From Edaphocola aurantiacus (lineage in GTDB: Bacteria; Bacteroidota; Bacteroidia; Chitinophagales; Chitinophagaceae), in the NCBI RefSeq assembly GCF_019797745.1, contig NZ_VOSI01000003.1, forward strand, positions 558,001-622,000: 64,000 nt of DNA, in the 5' to 3' direction. How positions within the stretch are numbered: the stretch's first letter is position 1; each line of letters starts with the position of its first letter. Made by a program: the position numbers and the translations under genes. Under the pieces are notes generated by a model. That model ran no database searches and was not told the origin of the DNA. It saw nothing but the letters and a program-made list of their open reading frames with translations. Of the stretch, positions 31,355 through 38,256 are shown piece after piece.

Positions 31355-31386
31355 AAAAGGCCCGCTCAATTGAGCGGGCCTTTTTT
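31355..31386. terminator. Terminator between lptC and the T9SS paralogue array
   Basis: A 30-bp palindrome (arms 31355-31369 and 31370-31384) with A/T feet; serves lptC and also the converging array. Confidence 0.9.
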
Positions 31387-31406: not shown

Positions 31407-32996
31407 TTATTTTTTAATCACCGTTTGGGAAGCGATTTTAGCTCCGTTAACGGTACTGTTCAGGAAGTATACTCCCGATGTGATGTTTGCCAGGCCATCC
31501 AGTTGCAGGGTATGCGTACCCGCTGCCAGAGCAGATTTCTGCTGTGCCACCAGTTTGCCGGTCACGTCAAACAGTTCCAGTTTCACGGTGCCCGCTGCGT
31601 TCAGGTTTACAGAAGTATTGATCACATTGCTGAATGGATTCGGATAGGTGCCCTGCCCTGTTTTCAGGTCTTTGGTACCTTTGAATGTACTCGTGCCCCA
31701 TGGCTTGAATGCATGGTGCAGGCGATACTCACCAATGCTTTCATCAAAATCATAGTATGCCGCATACAGGTAGTTCGTTGTGCCTTCCAGGTCCGATTTA
31801 CTGTAGGCAATACCCGGAGGACTTTGTATCACGTTAGGCATTTCAGAATTAGGCAGCCCCATATAATCCGGCGCGCTTACATAAGTAGAGCCATCAGCTT
31901 TCATCTGTATACCGGCATACAGGTTGCGGTCATTGCCATTGGTGGCATACCATCCTGTAGATACATGATCTGTCCAGGAGTTGCCATATTCAGTAAGACC
32001 GTAGTGTATGGTCGGAGAGAATGCTTTGAAACCTGTGGTAGGATTATTGCCCAGCGCACCGGAGTTTACCCCTACCGTGAAGGGCACGCCTGTGCTGAAG
32101 TGATCTCTGCTGCGTACAAAAACAGTCTGTCCGTCGCTATAGGTATAGCCCCAGTTCTGATAGATACACAGATCCGGACAATCCAGTACTGTTTTGCCAT
32201 ACAGGTTAGTGCCATAGTCTACATCTTCTATATTCAGAAACGCAACTGCTGGTGTTGTTTGTGCCATCACAAAATTCCAGTCCAGGTTACCCACGGTTAT
32301 AGTACCCAGGCTATTGTCTGTAACCATATATATCGTACTGTTACCTGCGGCACGGGTAACGGCTACATCAGGGTCTTTCTGGTCTGTACTGGTGATCATG
32401 GTAACCGGCGCACTCCATTGCCCGTAGTAATTACCAGCCATAACCTGTATGCCTACACCCGGGTTATTCCATACCACTGCTGCCATACTTTTATTGAAGC
32501 AGTCTATGCGGATGCGGCCATACTTCTGTGAGGCAGACAGCTGCATGGTATTGGTCAGTACCGGAGTGGTAGAGGTTGGTGTAATATCGTAGAAATCCAG
32601 GAAGTGCCCTGCACCATAGCGGTAGTACGCTACTACAATCTGGGTATTGACACCGTTCTGTATGGCTGCTACATCCAGTTCTGCTACATCATCATAAGGC
32701 AGTACTCCTCTGTCTATTACAGTAACCGAATACGGGTCAACGTAATGCCAGACTACTTCGCTATAATTACCCTTGTTGGCATTACCCCAGCCGGCCAATA
32801 CCAGGTTGTGCGTACCGTAGGCACTTTCAACATTCAGCAATGAATAGGCAGAAACGTTAGTCGGATCTTTAATCTGAGGACTGCCAAATACATGTTCCGG
32901 TGCTACACCAGTAGTAAAAGTTTGTGCATAAGATAAGCTTCCTGCAGCGGCGATCAGGCATGCGGCGAGGGCCAATGTTTTAAATGGTTTTAACAT
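31407..32996 (-). CDS. Secreted T9SS-cargo paralogue P1 (predicted seven-bladed beta-propeller)
   Basis: No named family is recognised. The 529 residues show a signal peptide ('LSYA|QTFT'), then seven stretches of strand-rich sequence that each end in a hydrophobic-aromatic core, e.g. 'VVAYYRYGAGHFLDFYDI', 'AAVVWNNPGVGI', 'NWGYTYSDG', 'STGWYATNG' and 'YLYAAYYDFDE', which I read as propeller blades. Residues about 449-529 are a type A T9SS sorting domain. P1 shares with P3 the 'DCPDLC' motif (Cys 273 and 277). It is the last gene of the minus-strand array. Confidence 0.75.
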   Translation of the reverse strand: MLKPFKTLALAACLIAAAGSLSYAQTFTTGVAPEHVFGSPQIKDPTNVSAYSLLNVESAYGTHNLVLAGWGNANKGNYSEVVWHYVDPYSVTVIDRGVLPYDDVAELDVAAIQNGVNTQIVVAYYRYGAGHFLDFYDITPTSTTPVLTNTMQLSASQKYGRIRIDCFNKSMAAVVWNNPGVGIQVMAGNYYGQWSAPVTMITSTDQKDPDVAVTRAAGNSTIYMVTDNSLGTITVGNLDWNFVMAQTTPAVAFLNIEDVDYGTNLYGKTVLDCPDLCIYQNWGYTYSDGQTVFVRSRDHFSTGVPFTVGVNSGALGNNPTTGFKAFSPTIHYGLTEYGNSWTDHVSTGWYATNGNDRNLYAGIQMKADGSTYVSAPDYMGLPNSEMPNVIQSPPGIAYSKSDLEGTTNYLYAAYYDFDESIGEYRLHHAFKPWGTSTFKGTKDLKTGQGTYPNPFSNVINTSVNLNAAGTVKLELFDVTGKLVAQQKSALAAGTHTLQLDGLANITSGVYFLNSTVNGAKIASQTVIKK

Positions 32997-33039
32997 GATT
33001 GTTTATTAGAGGATAAGTAAATGTCTGCTGAGGTTATAA

Positions 33040-33072
33040 ACATCCGGAGCTTTATGCTAAAGCTCCGGATGT
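33040..33072. terminator. Hairpin between paralogues P2 and P1
   Basis: Perfect 15-bp arms (33040-33054, 33058-33072), loop TGC, with little U-run on the minus strand. It may be a partial terminator or an mRNA-stabilising structure in the operon. Confidence 0.65.
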
Positions 33073-33080
33073 CGGAAATA

Positions 33081-34712
33081 TTACTGTTGCTTAACAACGG
33101 CTTTGCTATCAGTTTTCAGGCCGTTAATGGTTGTATTCATGAAATAAACACCTGGTGTGATGTTTTGCAGCCCGTTTAACTGGAGGCTATGTGTACCTGC
33201 AGTCAGCGATGCCTTTGTTTGTGCGATTACTTTACCGGTAATATCAAACAGCTCTACGGTTGCTACGCTTGCTTCTTTAAGGGTAACAGATGTATTGATG
33301 GTTTCATTGAACGGATTCGGATAAGTGCCCGTAACCGCTTTCAGGTCTTTGGTGCCTTTAAAGGCTCCTGTGCCCCAGTCGTGGAAGGCATGATGCAGGT
33401 TGAACTGACCACTAGGTCCGTCATAATCATAAAACACAGCGTACATGTAATCCGGTGCATATTTAAGATCGCCTTTGCTGAAGGCAATACCTGAGTACGG
33501 AAGCAGCGGATAAGTGGTCGCGTTGCTGCCATTAGGCAAGTCCAGGTAGTCTGCCGGACTGATTAATCCACTGCCGCTTTCATTCATTTCTAGCGCGATA
33601 TACCGGTTAAATCCTATACCGTCAGAGCTATACCAGCCCACATGGATCTGGTCTGTTGCACCCGGATTTCCCGGAGCGAGCGCACCCATACCGTAATGTA
33701 CGGTCGGTGTAAATACTTTCAGCGAACCTACGGTGCCGACATTACCCAATGCCCCTGAACTGACACTTACATTACCAGCCGTACTACTGGTATTATGATC
33801 CATATACTGGACAGATACATCTATATGATTGTCGGTATAGGTATAAGCCCAGTTGTCTACATTATAGTCATCCGGTGCATCCAGCATCAGTCTGGATCTG
33901 AGCGGATTACTCAATACATTAACATCTTCCACTGAAGGATAAACAATTGATCCGCCACCCAGCAGTGCCGAATAAGGAACTACAGATTCTGTAATCACCA
34001 TGCCCACTTTGTGGTGTACATAATGGACATTAATGCCGTTGTTTGTACGACAGAAAGCCACATCGGGACCTGCTTCGCCGAAGGTGTTATCCAGGGTCTT
34101 TGGCGCGTACCAGGTACCATCTCTTCCGGCCATCGTTCTGATGCCCACACCCGGTTCTTCCCACACAATAACCATGTCGCGCAGCTCGGTACTATGTGAA
34201 TCCATACGGATGCGGCCATATGTCGGCGAGGAAGATAAGTTCATCGTTGTGTTGTACACAACAGGATTGATAGGCGATGTGGTGATATCATAAATATCTA
34301 CAAAATGCCCCGAACCAATTTTGTAATAAGCCACATAGATCTGTGTCGTATTGGTGGCCAGGTTGCGCATAGCCCCTACTTCGAGATCGGCTACATCTGT
34401 GTACAGCTGGCTGCCCTGGTATAACAGTGCCGTAGGGCTACCGGATACGGAAAATTGCCAGGTTACCTCACTTACTGCTCCCGGATCGGGATTGGTCCAG
34501 GCCGCCAGATAAACGTCAGTCTGTCCGAATGCCATCGGGGTATTGAGCCCCCTGAATGCATAACAGGAAATGCTTTGGGGTTTGCTTACAGATGGGTCTC
34601 CGTAGATAAATTCAGGCCCGATAGGTGGCACATAATACTGTGCAGCGGCATTGAAAATGGTTCCTGCAATCAGGCAAGAACTTAAGGTCAGTGTTTTTAA
34701 TGGTCGTAACAT
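33081..34712 (-). CDS. Secreted T9SS-cargo paralogue P2 (predicted beta-propeller)
   Basis: A 543-residue protein (ATG 34712; 34718 also possible) with a signal peptide ending 'AAA|QYY', seven strand-rich blade-like stretches and a C-terminal sorting domain starting 'GTYPNPFNET'. It is closest to P4 in the propeller: both have 'DAPDDY' in place of 'DCPDLC', 'APGNPGATDQIHVGWYS' and a single early Cys ('SISCYAF'). Its sorting domain, in contrast, is closest to that of P1. No catalytic motif is evident. Ligand-binding or adhesive function is the simplest guess. Confidence 0.75.
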   Translation of the reverse strand: MLRPLKTLTLSSCLIAGTIFNAAAQYYVPPIGPEFIYGDPSVSKPQSISCYAFRGLNTPMAFGQTDVYLAAWTNPDPGAVSEVTWQFSVSGSPTALLYQGSQLYTDVADLEVGAMRNLATNTTQIYVAYYKIGSGHFVDIYDITTSPINPVVYNTTMNLSSSPTYGRIRMDSHSTELRDMVIVWEEPGVGIRTMAGRDGTWYAPKTLDNTFGEAGPDVAFCRTNNGINVHYVHHKVGMVITESVVPYSALLGGGSIVYPSVEDVNVLSNPLRSRLMLDAPDDYNVDNWAYTYTDNHIDVSVQYMDHNTSSTAGNVSVSSGALGNVGTVGSLKVFTPTVHYGMGALAPGNPGATDQIHVGWYSSDGIGFNRYIALEMNESGSGLISPADYLDLPNGSNATTYPLLPYSGIAFSKGDLKYAPDYMYAVFYDYDGPSGQFNLHHAFHDWGTGAFKGTKDLKAVTGTYPNPFNETINTSVTLKEASVATVELFDITGKVIAQTKASLTAGTHSLQLNGLQNITPGVYFMNTTINGLKTDSKAVVKQQ

Positions 34713-34778
34713 GTTCATTAGAGGGTTGTATTTTATAGTTGAATAAAAAAATGCGGATGATATATTCCAGACAATGAT

Positions 34779-36374
34779 TTACAGCTTGATCAAAGTCTGC
34801 GTCTGTTGCGCCGTACCATTTACAATGATGGACAGGAAATAAGTACCCGGAACCGTTCCCTGTAACTGGTCCAGCTGCAGCTGATGTGTACCTGCCGGCA
34901 CTGCCTGTCTTTTCTGGCTTACGATGCGACCGGTGATGTCAGATAATTGTACCTGTACCATAGCTGCTCCCTCGACGGTAACTGCAGTATTGATCCGGTC
35001 ATTAAAGGGATTCGGGTAAGTATTGATCGCAGCTGCTTTCGGCGCTGCAGTGCCTTTAAATACAGTATTGCCCCAGCTATGATATGCGTGATGCAGACTG
35101 AACTGATCTGTAGCCGGATTGTAATCATAATAAGTTGCATACAGGAACTCCGGAGCCAGTTGCTGATCACTTTTACTCAGCGCAATACCCGGCAGGCCAT
35201 GATATTGATCGGCCGTGAACGAATTGGGCAGCGCCATATAATCGGGGCCGCTCAGTAAGGTTGTGCCGTCTGCAGTCATTTGTATACCTGCATATCCGTT
35301 GGTGCCGGAGAGGTCTGTAACATACCAGGCTACGGTAATATTATCAGTCGGATGAATGCCATAAGCGTCGGTCAGGCCATAGTGTATTGTCGGGCTATAA
35401 GTTTCATGCACATCCAGCGGTGCATTACCCAGTACTCCGGAGGTTACGGTTACCGAGGTTGGTGTTGCTGTAGAGAAATAGTCGATATAGCGGACATAAA
35501 CGTACCGGTTGTCGGAATAGGTATAAGCCCAGTTATCTTCACTGCACAGATCCGGACAGTCTATCACCGGGTTGCTGATGGTATGGTTGAGTACATTTAC
35601 ATCTTCTACAACCGGGCTCAGCACCCCACTGGTTGCATTCTTCAGGGTATTCCAGTCCAGGGTAGACTCTGTAACGACACCATTGCCATTGTGATAAACG
35701 TAGTGAATGCGCGCAGGATTCGCACCTCCGCCATGTTTCACCGCCACATCTGGTTCATGCTGGTATTCTGTACCTGCAAAGGTTTGTACCATGCCCCAGC
35801 TACCGGCGTTGTCCAGTGCGCAACTCTGAATGCCGATACCCGGATATTCCCAGGTAAACACCATCTGGTGCTGGAAAAAGCCATCTACCCTTATGCGGCC
35901 GTAGTCGGCTGAATTGGATAGCTGTACCGTATTATTAAACACTACAGGAGTGAATGTAGAATTGGTAACGTCGTAAATGTCTACAAAGTGCCCGATACCT
36001 ATACGGTAATACGCTACCAGTATCTGTGTCGCAGTGCCGTTAAATACGGCGCTTACGTCCAGACCTACAACATCGTTATACGGAATAGAGCCTTGTTGTA
36101 GTATGCTGGTTGTGCCTCCCTGCAAAAATTGCCAGGTAACCTCACTTTTGCTCCCGTTCTTTGGATACCAGGAAGCTAGGTACATATCTACCAGTCCGAA
36201 ACCTGTTGGGATCATTGTGGCAGAATAAGCTGAGGTACCTGTAGCATCTGTCACAGACACATCGTTATATACATATTCTGTGGCCAGCGGGCTGGTAAAT
36301 GTTTGTGCATGGGATAAAATACCAGTTCCGGCAAGGAGACTGCCTAATACCATTACTTTCAATGGTTGTAACAT
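34779..36374 (-). CDS. Secreted T9SS-cargo paralogue P3 (predicted beta-propeller)
   Basis: A 531-residue paralogue with signal peptide ending 'SHA|QTFT', the same order of seven blade-like stretches and a sorting domain from 'NTYPNPFNDRI' to the terminal Leu. In the propeller it matches P1: 'DCPDLCSEDNWAYTYSDN', 'GLTDAYG' and 'AGIQMTADG'. Its sorting domain matches P4. The gene is 60 bases from P2 with no clear hairpin in the gap. Function unknown. Confidence 0.75.
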   Translation of the reverse strand: MLQPLKVMVLGSLLAGTGILSHAQTFTSPLATEYVYNDVSVTDATGTSAYSATMIPTGFGLVDMYLASWYPKNGSKSEVTWQFLQGGTTSILQQGSIPYNDVVGLDVSAVFNGTATQILVAYYRIGIGHFVDIYDVTNSTFTPVVFNNTVQLSNSADYGRIRVDGFFQHQMVFTWEYPGIGIQSCALDNAGSWGMVQTFAGTEYQHEPDVAVKHGGGANPARIHYVYHNGNGVVTESTLDWNTLKNATSGVLSPVVEDVNVLNHTISNPVIDCPDLCSEDNWAYTYSDNRYVYVRYIDYFSTATPTSVTVTSGVLGNAPLDVHETYSPTIHYGLTDAYGIHPTDNITVAWYVTDLSGTNGYAGIQMTADGTTLLSGPDYMALPNSFTADQYHGLPGIALSKSDQQLAPEFLYATYYDYNPATDQFSLHHAYHSWGNTVFKGTAAPKAAAINTYPNPFNDRINTAVTVEGAAMVQVQLSDITGRIVSQKRQAVPAGTHQLQLDQLQGTVPGTYFLSIIVNGTAQQTQTLIKL

Positions 36375-36405
36375 GTTTATTTGTTTTTACAGTTGAAATG
36401 GGAAT

Positions 36406-36435
36406 CACTACTGTCCGAAAGATCGAACAGTAGTG
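36406..36435. terminator. Hairpin between paralogues P4 and P3
   Basis: 13-bp arms (36406-36418, 36423-36435) with one G-U pair and loop AAGA; no T-run. As in the P2-P1 gap, it may tune relative expression within the operon. Confidence 0.55.
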
Positions 36436-36453
36436 GTATGGTTGATGTGTTTG

Positions 36454-38088
36454 TTATTGCTTGATGAGTGTTTGTGTACCCTGCTTTTTACCATTGATAC
36501 TGGTCGTCAGGAAGTAAGTACCGGCAACGGTTTGCTGCAGTTGGCCCATCTGTACCTGATGTGTTCCGGCCTGTACCGATTCTCTTTTCTGAGCGACCAT
36601 GCGACCGGCAATGTCAAACAGTTGCAGTTGTACGGTAGCAGCTTCCTGCAGGGTAACCGATGTACTGATCCTGTCATGGAATGGATTAGGATAGGTATTT
36701 ACAGCAGTTTGTTTGAGGGTAAGCTCTTTGGAGAATGCTGTACTGCCCCACGGGTGGAAGGCATGGTGGAATTCATACTGACTGGTTGTGGCATTGTAAT
36801 CGTAGTAAACGGTATACAGGAAGTCAGGAGCATATTTTAAATCGGCCTTACTGAAAGCAATGCCGGTAGCCGGGAATTGCGGGTAGATAGATGGTGTAGC
36901 CGCATTAGGTAACAGTAAATAATCTCCTGCACTGGCCACACCGCTTCCATCTGCATACATTTCCAGTCCCAGGTATTGATTGGACGAAGCGCCATCTGTG
37001 CTGTACCAGCCTACATGGATCTGGTCAGTTGCACCCGGATTACCTGGTGCCAGTGCAGCCATACCATAGTGCAGTGCCGGGCTCTGTATTTTATAATATC
37101 CGGTGGTCGGGTAATTGAACAGAGAGCCATCAGTCATACTTTTTGTGGTCGGAGGAGTACCGCTGTTATAATCAATATAGCGTACATAAGGATCTATCAT
37201 GCCACCATCAACATAGGTATAGGCCCAGTTATCTGCAGTATAATCATCCGGTGCATCCAGTACAATGCGGGATTGCAGAGAGTAAGTCAGTGCATTGACA
37301 TCTTCTATATTTGGCGTAACAGATCCTGCAGAACCCAGCAAGGTGCCAAAGTCAACATAAGATTCTGTGATCTCATTAGTGGCATTGTTATAGTATACAT
37401 AGTGCACATTTATGCCACCATTTGAGCGGCAGAAAGCCACATCCGGTCCAGACTCACCGTTAGTGCCGCTCAGGTTCAGGATATTGGCAAAGTTTCCGTC
37501 ATTGCCCACCAGGGTATTGATACCCGCGCCCGGTTCTTCCCATACAATCGCCAGAGATCTGATGCCAATGCTATGCGTGTCCATACGAATACGGCCATAG
37601 ACCGGTGAGTTGGACAGCTGATGGGTACCGATAAACTGTACGGGATTAAAAGGATTGGTCGGCACATAATCATATACATCCAGGAAGTGTCCCTGGCCTA
37701 ATTTGTAATAAGCAACATAAATCTGCACGGTGCTGGTGCTGGTATTGTACATAGTACCTACTTCCAGGTCTGCAACATCACCATACAGGAAGGAGCCTGA
37801 AAAGGCTATCGTGGTGGTACCGGCATTTGCAATCTGCCAGGTAAATTCACTTTTAGCACCATACTGCGGACAAGTCCAGGCAGCCAGGTAGACATCTACA
37901 GGGCCGTATCCGGGCATAATACCTGCCCTGAATGCATAGCAGGAAGCACTTTCCGGTTTGCTGATAGCCGGGTCTCCGAATACAAATTCTGCAGCCACAG
38001 GAGATGTATACGTTTGTGCTGAAGCATTGATCAGCCCCAGGCTCAACAGTCCGGAACATAAAGTAAGCGTTTTTAAAGATGGTAACAT
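36454..38088 (-). CDS. Secreted T9SS-cargo paralogue P4 (predicted beta-propeller), first gene of the array
   Basis: A 544-residue paralogue, the promoter-proximal gene of the array. The signal peptide ends 'ASA|QTYT', a single Cys in 'SASCYAF' and 'DAPDDYTADNWAYTY' place its propeller with P2, and a sorting domain 'NTYPNPFHDRI' places its C-terminus with P3. No enzymatic signature was seen. The array promoter and a palindrome lie in the gap between P4 and the ftsK terminator. Confidence 0.75.
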   Translation of the reverse strand: MLPSLKTLTLCSGLLSLGLINASAQTYTSPVAAEFVFGDPAISKPESASCYAFRAGIMPGYGPVDVYLAAWTCPQYGAKSEFTWQIANAGTTTIAFSGSFLYGDVADLEVGTMYNTSTSTVQIYVAYYKLGQGHFLDVYDYVPTNPFNPVQFIGTHQLSNSPVYGRIRMDTHSIGIRSLAIVWEEPGAGINTLVGNDGNFANILNLSGTNGESGPDVAFCRSNGGINVHYVYYNNATNEITESYVDFGTLLGSAGSVTPNIEDVNALTYSLQSRIVLDAPDDYTADNWAYTYVDGGMIDPYVRYIDYNSGTPPTTKSMTDGSLFNYPTTGYYKIQSPALHYGMAALAPGNPGATDQIHVGWYSTDGASSNQYLGLEMYADGSGVASAGDYLLLPNAATPSIYPQFPATGIAFSKADLKYAPDFLYTVYYDYNATTSQYEFHHAFHPWGSTAFSKELTLKQTAVNTYPNPFHDRISTSVTLQEAATVQLQLFDIAGRMVAQKRESVQAGTHQVQMGQLQQTVAGTYFLTTSINGKKQGTQTLIKQ

Positions 38089-38207: not shown

Positions 38208-38256
38208 GATAATAAAAAGGCACCTGTACAGAACGTACAGGTGCCTTTTTATTATC
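38208..38256 (-). terminator. Terminator after ftsK
   Basis: Perfect 22-bp arms (38208-38229, 38235-38256), loop AGAAC, with A/T runs inside the stem feet. It insulates the array promoter from ftsK transcription. Confidence 0.9.

Follow-up and report, generated by a model that had tools for sequence, protein, structure and literature searches.

A mosaic of body and sorting-tail ancestry in four tandem type IX secretion cargo genes of Edaphocola aurantiacus

Introduction

Do the body and the sorting tail of a secreted protein share a single history? The question is raised by a stretch of 64,000 nucleotides from Edaphocola aurantiacus (contig NZ_VOSI01000003.1, positions 558,001 to 622,000; hereafter the window), in which four paralogous genes, P4, P3, P2 and P1 in transcription order, stand in tandem. 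An initial annotation, made from the sequence alone, described them as cargo of the type IX secretion system (T9SS) whose bodies alternate in an A-B-A-B order and whose C-terminal tails group the other way. It proposed duplication of a two-gene unit, after which adjacent genes swapped their C-terminal ends. Here we report that P1-P4 are indeed a mosaic of body and tail ancestry, with an independent case of tail exchange in Taibaiella, and that the trees neither establish nor reject a duplication of two genes as one unit.

Results

Body and tail trees of the array disagree

The array consists of four uninterrupted open reading frames (ORFs), head to tail and all on the minus strand: P4 (36454..38088, 544 aa) and P2 (33081..34718, 545 aa) with B-type bodies, and P3 (34779..36374, 531 aa) and P1 (31407..32996, 529 aa) with A-type bodies. 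All four tails scored above the curated cut-offs of both PF18962 (33-42 bits, cut-off 27) and TIGR04183 (38-45 bits, cut-off 23) and are type A T9SS sorting domains, which bears out the reading as four tandem T9SS cargo paralogues.

Body and tail were aligned and treed apart, initially for 33 family members from seven genomes. Removal of three long-branch rows (G005_C7, G001_C8 and G004_C6c), absent thereafter, gave a 30-row set, and the addition of 13 of 34 further candidate frames gave a 43-row set; of the other 21 frames, 15 were cut at locus ends and six, distant or duplicate, were omitted by choice. The body trees joined P2 and P4 with support of 100/98-99. The tail trees joined P3 with P4 (99/94-96) and P1 with P2 (96-98/94-96). 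In approximately unbiased (AU) tests, both tail pairings were rejected on the body, in the 30-row set (P3+P4, p 1.3e-4; P1+P2, p 6.5e-8) as well as in the 43-row set (p 1.9e-4 and 3.6e-4, respectively). Conversely, the tail rejected P2+P4 (p 0.005) and P1+P3 (p 0.035) in the 30-row set, and P2+P4 again in the 43-row set (p 0.003).

The point of disagreement was located by a scan of informative sites along the four genes, which excluded the 10 of 54 sites that favour the third split. Upstream of P1 residues 379-409 (31770..31862, minus strand), 24 of 29 sites favoured the split of P1 and P3 from P2 and P4, and downstream 13 of 15 favoured P1 and P2 against P3 and P4. None of 20,000 permutations reached the observed value (p 5e-5). 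The switch falls roughly where the sixth predicted blade of the body gives way to the last, upstream of the sorting domains of P4 (residues 466-544, 36457..36693), P3 (453-531, 34782..35018), P2 (466-545, 33084..33323) and P1 (451-529, 31410..31646), all on the minus strand, of which the first two pair with each other, as do the last two.

Hence, the tree conflict, the AU rejections and the switch point together confirm the mosaic, and with it the claims that body and tail trees disagree and that tails pair P1 with P2 and P3 with P4. Two points weigh against this result: just 80 columns of the tail were usable, and bootstrapping of the 43-row tail tree had not settled. The motifs named in the initial annotation were all present. 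Among the 43 members, with two motifs searched in shortened form, they were private to their pairs and the Edaphocola flava orthologues, except that GTYPNPF occurred in one further member and GTYFL in 10.

The alternation of the bodies stood in part. The sister relation of P2 and P4 is clear. P1 and P3 fell into one body group together with two further members (94/92, 43 rows), within which a singleton from another genome, G004_C10a, grouped with P1 and apart from P3 (89/93), and forcing P1 and P3 together on the body was not rejected (AU p 0.39 and 0.34). P1 and P3 as body sisters, and hence one two-gene duplication, are thus neither shown nor rejected, a result that counts against our interpretation.

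A probable second tail exchange in Taibaiella

Arrays in related genomes, which the initial annotation had suggested looking for, were found at the same place in E. flava (P2-P1) and as a tandem pair common to Taibaiella helva and T. koreensis. In the 43-row trees, the Taibaiella bodies grouped by gene (a with a, 100/100; b with b, 100/99), and the two T. koreensis tails joined each other (97/98). Orthologue clades of the tails were rejected by AU tests (p 0.016 and 0.003). At the DNA level, identity over codons 535-564 was 87-89% for neighbours and 74-76% for orthologues, opposite to what the body showed, and at third codon positions of the same codons the values were 70-73% and 47-50%, respectively. 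Over the last 16 codons the T. koreensis neighbours were 94% identical. Taibaiella is therefore an independent case of tail exchange, and support for swapping of C-terminal ends by adjacent genes extends beyond the original array. The T. helva data pull the other way: its two tails formed no supported clade (27/0), lying beside the T. koreensis tails, and its neighbours were 81% identical over the last 16 codons, compared with 77-88% for orthologue pairs.

Tail identity minus body identity was then compared for all within-genome pairs of the 43-row set. Five of seven adjacent pairs (three of five when orthologous copies are counted once) showed a tail excess of +21 to +24 points. No excess of 21 points or more was seen among 62 non-adjacent pairs, the largest being +17 (one-sided Mann-Whitney p 0.0036; 0.041 with five adjacent pairs). 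Not every neighbouring pair conforms, which again argues against our interpretation: the tandem pair of the metagenome-assembled genome (MAG) 43-16 had an excess of +0, P2/P3, which spans the two units, had only +3, and in three other T9SS arrays of the E. aurantiacus genome (two of the nine genes cut at locus ends) the tail exceeded the body in two of nine pairs, by 3 and 8 points, the tails being less alike than the bodies in the other seven. A general rule of T9SS tail copying, sought in these arrays, was not found.

These three arrays lie outside the window. L121 (G000:C4:601500-609000) holds three tandem paralogues of about 600 aa, and in one of their three pairs tail identity exceeds body identity (65 vs 57%). 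L122 (G000:C2:235500-250500) and L123 (G000:C4:152500-170000) are large cargo arrays with proteins of up to 1,985 aa, each with one gene cut at a locus end, and their tails are less alike than the bodies in five of six pairs.

Direction of exchange and history of the array

The distance between P2 and P4 was about the same in the tail (0.83; 0.96 in the larger set) as in the body (0.85), and that between P1 and P2 was far lower in the tail (0.52) than in the body (about 1.82). Therefore, A genes probably received B tails, with B as the donor. The four tails as a single clade were not rejected (p 0.53 and 0.34), and the four bodies as a single clade were (p 0.011).

The stretch comprising the flanking DNA, P1 and P2 matches E. 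flava HME-24 at 94.6% identity over 7,738 bp, and the E. flava orthologues of P1 and of P2 are each 97% identical. Nonsynonymous rates (dN) of 0.010-0.020 against synonymous rates (dS) of 0.19-0.33 show that purifying selection acts on both genes. Because the E. flava copies share the tail pattern, the P2/P1 event is older than the split of the two species; P4/P3 has no orthologue by which its event could be dated. P4 and P3, a unit of 3,370 bp from start to start, are absent from the E. flava locus, where a P4-like leader runs into the P2 leader (34719..34740, minus strand, in the window), as expected for excision of P4-P3 between similar leaders. Loss in E. flava fits better than recent gain, since the divergence of P3/P4 from P1/P2 far exceeds that between the two species; gain by transfer is the alternative.

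In Taibaiella sp. KBW10 the genes that we take to be ftsK and lptC, between which the array lies in E. aurantiacus, are 410 bp apart, and no array remnant was found in this gap (best E-value 0.49). The same gap is filled with about 7 kb of other, unrelated genes in two MAGs (L119 and L120), so the junction seems to tolerate insertions.

The bodies are predicted beta-propellers found, in this sampling, only in part of Chitinophagaceae

AlphaFold2 models of P4 and P3 (predicted local distance difference test, 83.0 and 84.3) were almost all-beta, with a body of about 420 residues folded as one propeller and followed by the tail. The models, together with Foldseek comparisons, support a beta-propeller, in good agreement with the propeller-like body first proposed, and the blades probably number seven (about seven sets of four strands, grouped from the strand listing and not from coordinates). 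Propellers, among them lectins, sialidases and WD40 proteins, made up most of the listed Foldseek matches. For P3, 27 of the 50 PDB chains listed by Foldseek were propeller lectins, representing about eight distinct proteins. The 50 listed matches of P4 included 11 sialidases or neuraminidases and four lectins, and its best template modelling (TM) score by target length among them, 0.64, came from WD40 chains.

Sequence searches of Pfam-A and NCBIfam gave no family for the body, and those of PDB no match beyond chance, in line with the initial annotation, which knew of no described family. The PDB chains that appeared were at chance level (jacalin, E 0.14, A1; reductase, E 0.061, A4), and a Rhodopsin_N match in one of 24 bodies searched against Pfam (E 0.0057) was weak and taken as chance. 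A full-length profile matched 194 of 294 genomes, mainly through the tail alone, and was superseded by a body-only profile. With at most four candidates scored per genome, so that copy numbers are lower bounds, the latter matched 22 of 394 genomes and seven of 101 genera sampled in Chitinophagaceae. It also matched four of 396 genomes in a sample of the order and two of 395 in a sample of the phylum, all from Chitinophagaceae. Elsewhere in the order, a genome from a different family (G037) gave a partial match at query positions 354-516, mostly tail.

The two body types differ in their cysteines. P1 and P3 carry those of DCPDLC at residues 273 and 277. The B types have DAPDDY instead, with a Cys in SCYAFR and another in AFCR (residues 52 and 223 in P2, 50 and 220 in P4). 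As judged from sequence, the disulphide is possibly a different one.

Export signals and genomic setting

Each N-terminus of P1-P4 has a hydrophobic stretch that ends ahead of Gln, and A/S/G-Q, a loose pattern only, occurred inside the first 75 residues of all 43 family members; a putative signal peptide is assigned to the four proteins. The genome encodes SprA, the only T9SS translocon gene searched for, in a frame of 2,495 aa (SprA_N, E 1.1e-150; no match in 14 control genomes), and holds at least 137 matches to T9SS tail models (150 of 165 candidates scored). Six full-length paralogues were found in the genome, namely P1-P4 and two singletons (G000:C3:685980 and G000:C3:206948).

The genes on either side of the array, ftsK-like and lptC-like, are presumably housekeeping genes. 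A 22-bp hairpin (38208..38256, minus strand, as are all that follow) sets the array apart from the ftsK-like gene, and a terminator-like hairpin stands at its end (31355..31384). Within the array, judged without a shuffle control, strong hairpins follow both B genes, of 13 bp in the P4/P3 gap (36406..36435) and of 16 bp in the P2/P1 gap (33039..33073), and none comparable was found in the P3/P2 gap, which fits a repeated B-A unit. The number of sites in promoter and terminator scans was not above that in shuffles, and therefore no promoter is claimed; the array genes may be transcribed jointly. Of the "undescribed secreted system" suggested initially, the cargo array stood, and the neighbourhood held no sign of a multi-part system.

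Discussion

We propose that each protein would be exported by the Sec pathway, pass the outer membrane through the T9SS by means of its C-terminal tail, and then either stay on display at the cell surface or be released from it, as a single beta-propeller, probably of seven blades. The bodies are of two alternating types, B in P4 and P2 and A in P3 and P1. They would have diverged first; later, in each B-A unit (P4/P3 and P2/P1) and not across P3/P2, one gene would have overwritten the 3' end of the other by gene conversion, over a tract of roughly the last blade plus the sorting domain. Such conversion of tails is the likeliest process, as 3'-end conversion between direct neighbours would account both for a tail excess of 21 points or more found among neighbours only and for the Taibaiella case. 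Taken as a whole, with mosaic array, 3'-end conversion, surface propellers and glycan binding, we consider this explanation somewhat more probable than not.

Could the paired tails arise with no exchange at all, if a short and constrained sorting domain misled the trees? The 80 columns of the tail and several tail branches without resolution would allow it. Yet AU tests rejected the body groupings on the tail, the tail excess was found in none of the 62 non-adjacent pairs of the same genomes, third codon positions carry it in Taibaiella, and in seven of nine pairs from other arrays of the genome the tails fell below the bodies; we regard this reading as very improbable. The order of duplications is a closer matter. 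In a stepwise array, an old A split and a younger B split would have been followed by rearrangement to the B-A order, with no single two-gene duplication. The body distance of 1.56 changes per column between P1 and P3, about twice the 0.85 between P2 and P4, speaks for it, as does the grouping of G004_C10a with P1, whereas the unrejected P1+P3 constraint, the strong hairpin after both B genes and not after P3, and the absence of exactly the P4-P3 unit from E. flava speak for the two-gene unit. The stepwise history is a serious contender, if a little less than evenly matched, and of the proposed duplication of a two-gene unit only the sisterhood of P2 and P4 is established. It is also conceivable, though we think it improbable, that tail copying was kept by selection. 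The matched sorting domains of each B-A unit would then let two different propellers be exported and anchored in concert, forming a surface receptor of two parts whose working unit is the pair of bodies and not either protein alone.

As to function, the reading with most support is surface glycan binding, as a lectin or adhesin, a tentative suggestion from the predicted fold that is credible but short of an even chance. Several results count against it. TM scores by query length stayed below 0.5 among the matches listed (best 0.47 for P3 and 0.44 for P4); the lectin matches of P3 were only 7-13% identical; WD40 chains scored as well as lectins; and in hhalign comparisons of blades, cut by hand from the strand listing, all 21 pairs fell below 5% probability. 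A secreted glycan-cleaving propeller enzyme is an unlikely alternative to a binding protein. Sialidases head the Foldseek list of P4, an arabinanase appears in both lists, and six Asp and one Arg are invariant in 24 bodies. Against an enzyme, the strict sialidase Asp-box pattern SxDxGxxW occurred in none of the 43 proteins, and the body has no Pfam or NCBIfam enzyme match. Nor was the sialidase arginine triad found, as judged by conservation without superposition: just one Arg column is invariant, two further ones hold Arg in 21 and 20 of the 24 bodies, and two of the three columns are two residues apart. A role as accessory parts of the secretion machine would follow the example of PorZ, a protein of beta-propeller fold that is itself T9SS cargo and carries a tail of its own (PMC5445135). 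PorZ carries two propellers, and the body family was found in seven of 101 sampled genera compared with 76 of 101 for a profile that includes the tail, which makes such a role highly improbable.

In at least two separate cases, then, a T9SS sorting tail has evolved apart from its cargo and passed between adjacent genes, which bears on the question of whether one tail can stand in for another or is matched to its particular cargo. The locus also marks a secreted propeller family that has no Pfam or NCBIfam model and, in this sampling, occurs in part of one bacterial family only; the ligand of this family is directly testable. Among the matches listed in the open-access literature, neither tail conversion between T9SS cargo paralogues nor the P1-P4 propeller family was reported, and in the available part of PMC5714932 "gene conversion" occurs only in a reference title.

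Compared with known systems, P1-P4 resemble T9SS type A cargo (TIGR04183/PF18962) in their four tails above cut-off and putative signal peptides, and differ in a body outside Pfam-A and NCBIfam families and in tails apparently swapped between tandem neighbours. The fungal propeller lectins AAL, AFL, AOL and AofleA and the Photorhabdus lectins PLL and PHL have six or seven blades. With these, the likeness lies in the predicted fold (target-normalised TM up to 0.65), and the difference in the 7-13% identity and in blades that are mutually dissimilar in the P1-P4 family. Bacterial sialidases were the first Foldseek matches of P4, at TM 0.30-0.36, and the P1-P4 family differs from them in having no strict Asp boxes and one invariant Arg. 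PorZ is likewise a T9SS-exported beta-propeller with a tail, but it comprises two propellers and serves the secretion machine (PMC5445135), in contrast to the one propeller modelled for P1-P4. A parallel in recombination is found in the gingipain and HagA surface polyproteins of Porphyromonas gingivalis, T9SS cargo for which PMC5266723 describes recombination between related genes and domain rearrangement. There the variation falls in the adhesin domains, with a tail described as conserved, whereas in P1-P4 it is the tail that apparently moves from one neighbour to the next, each body keeping its own identity.

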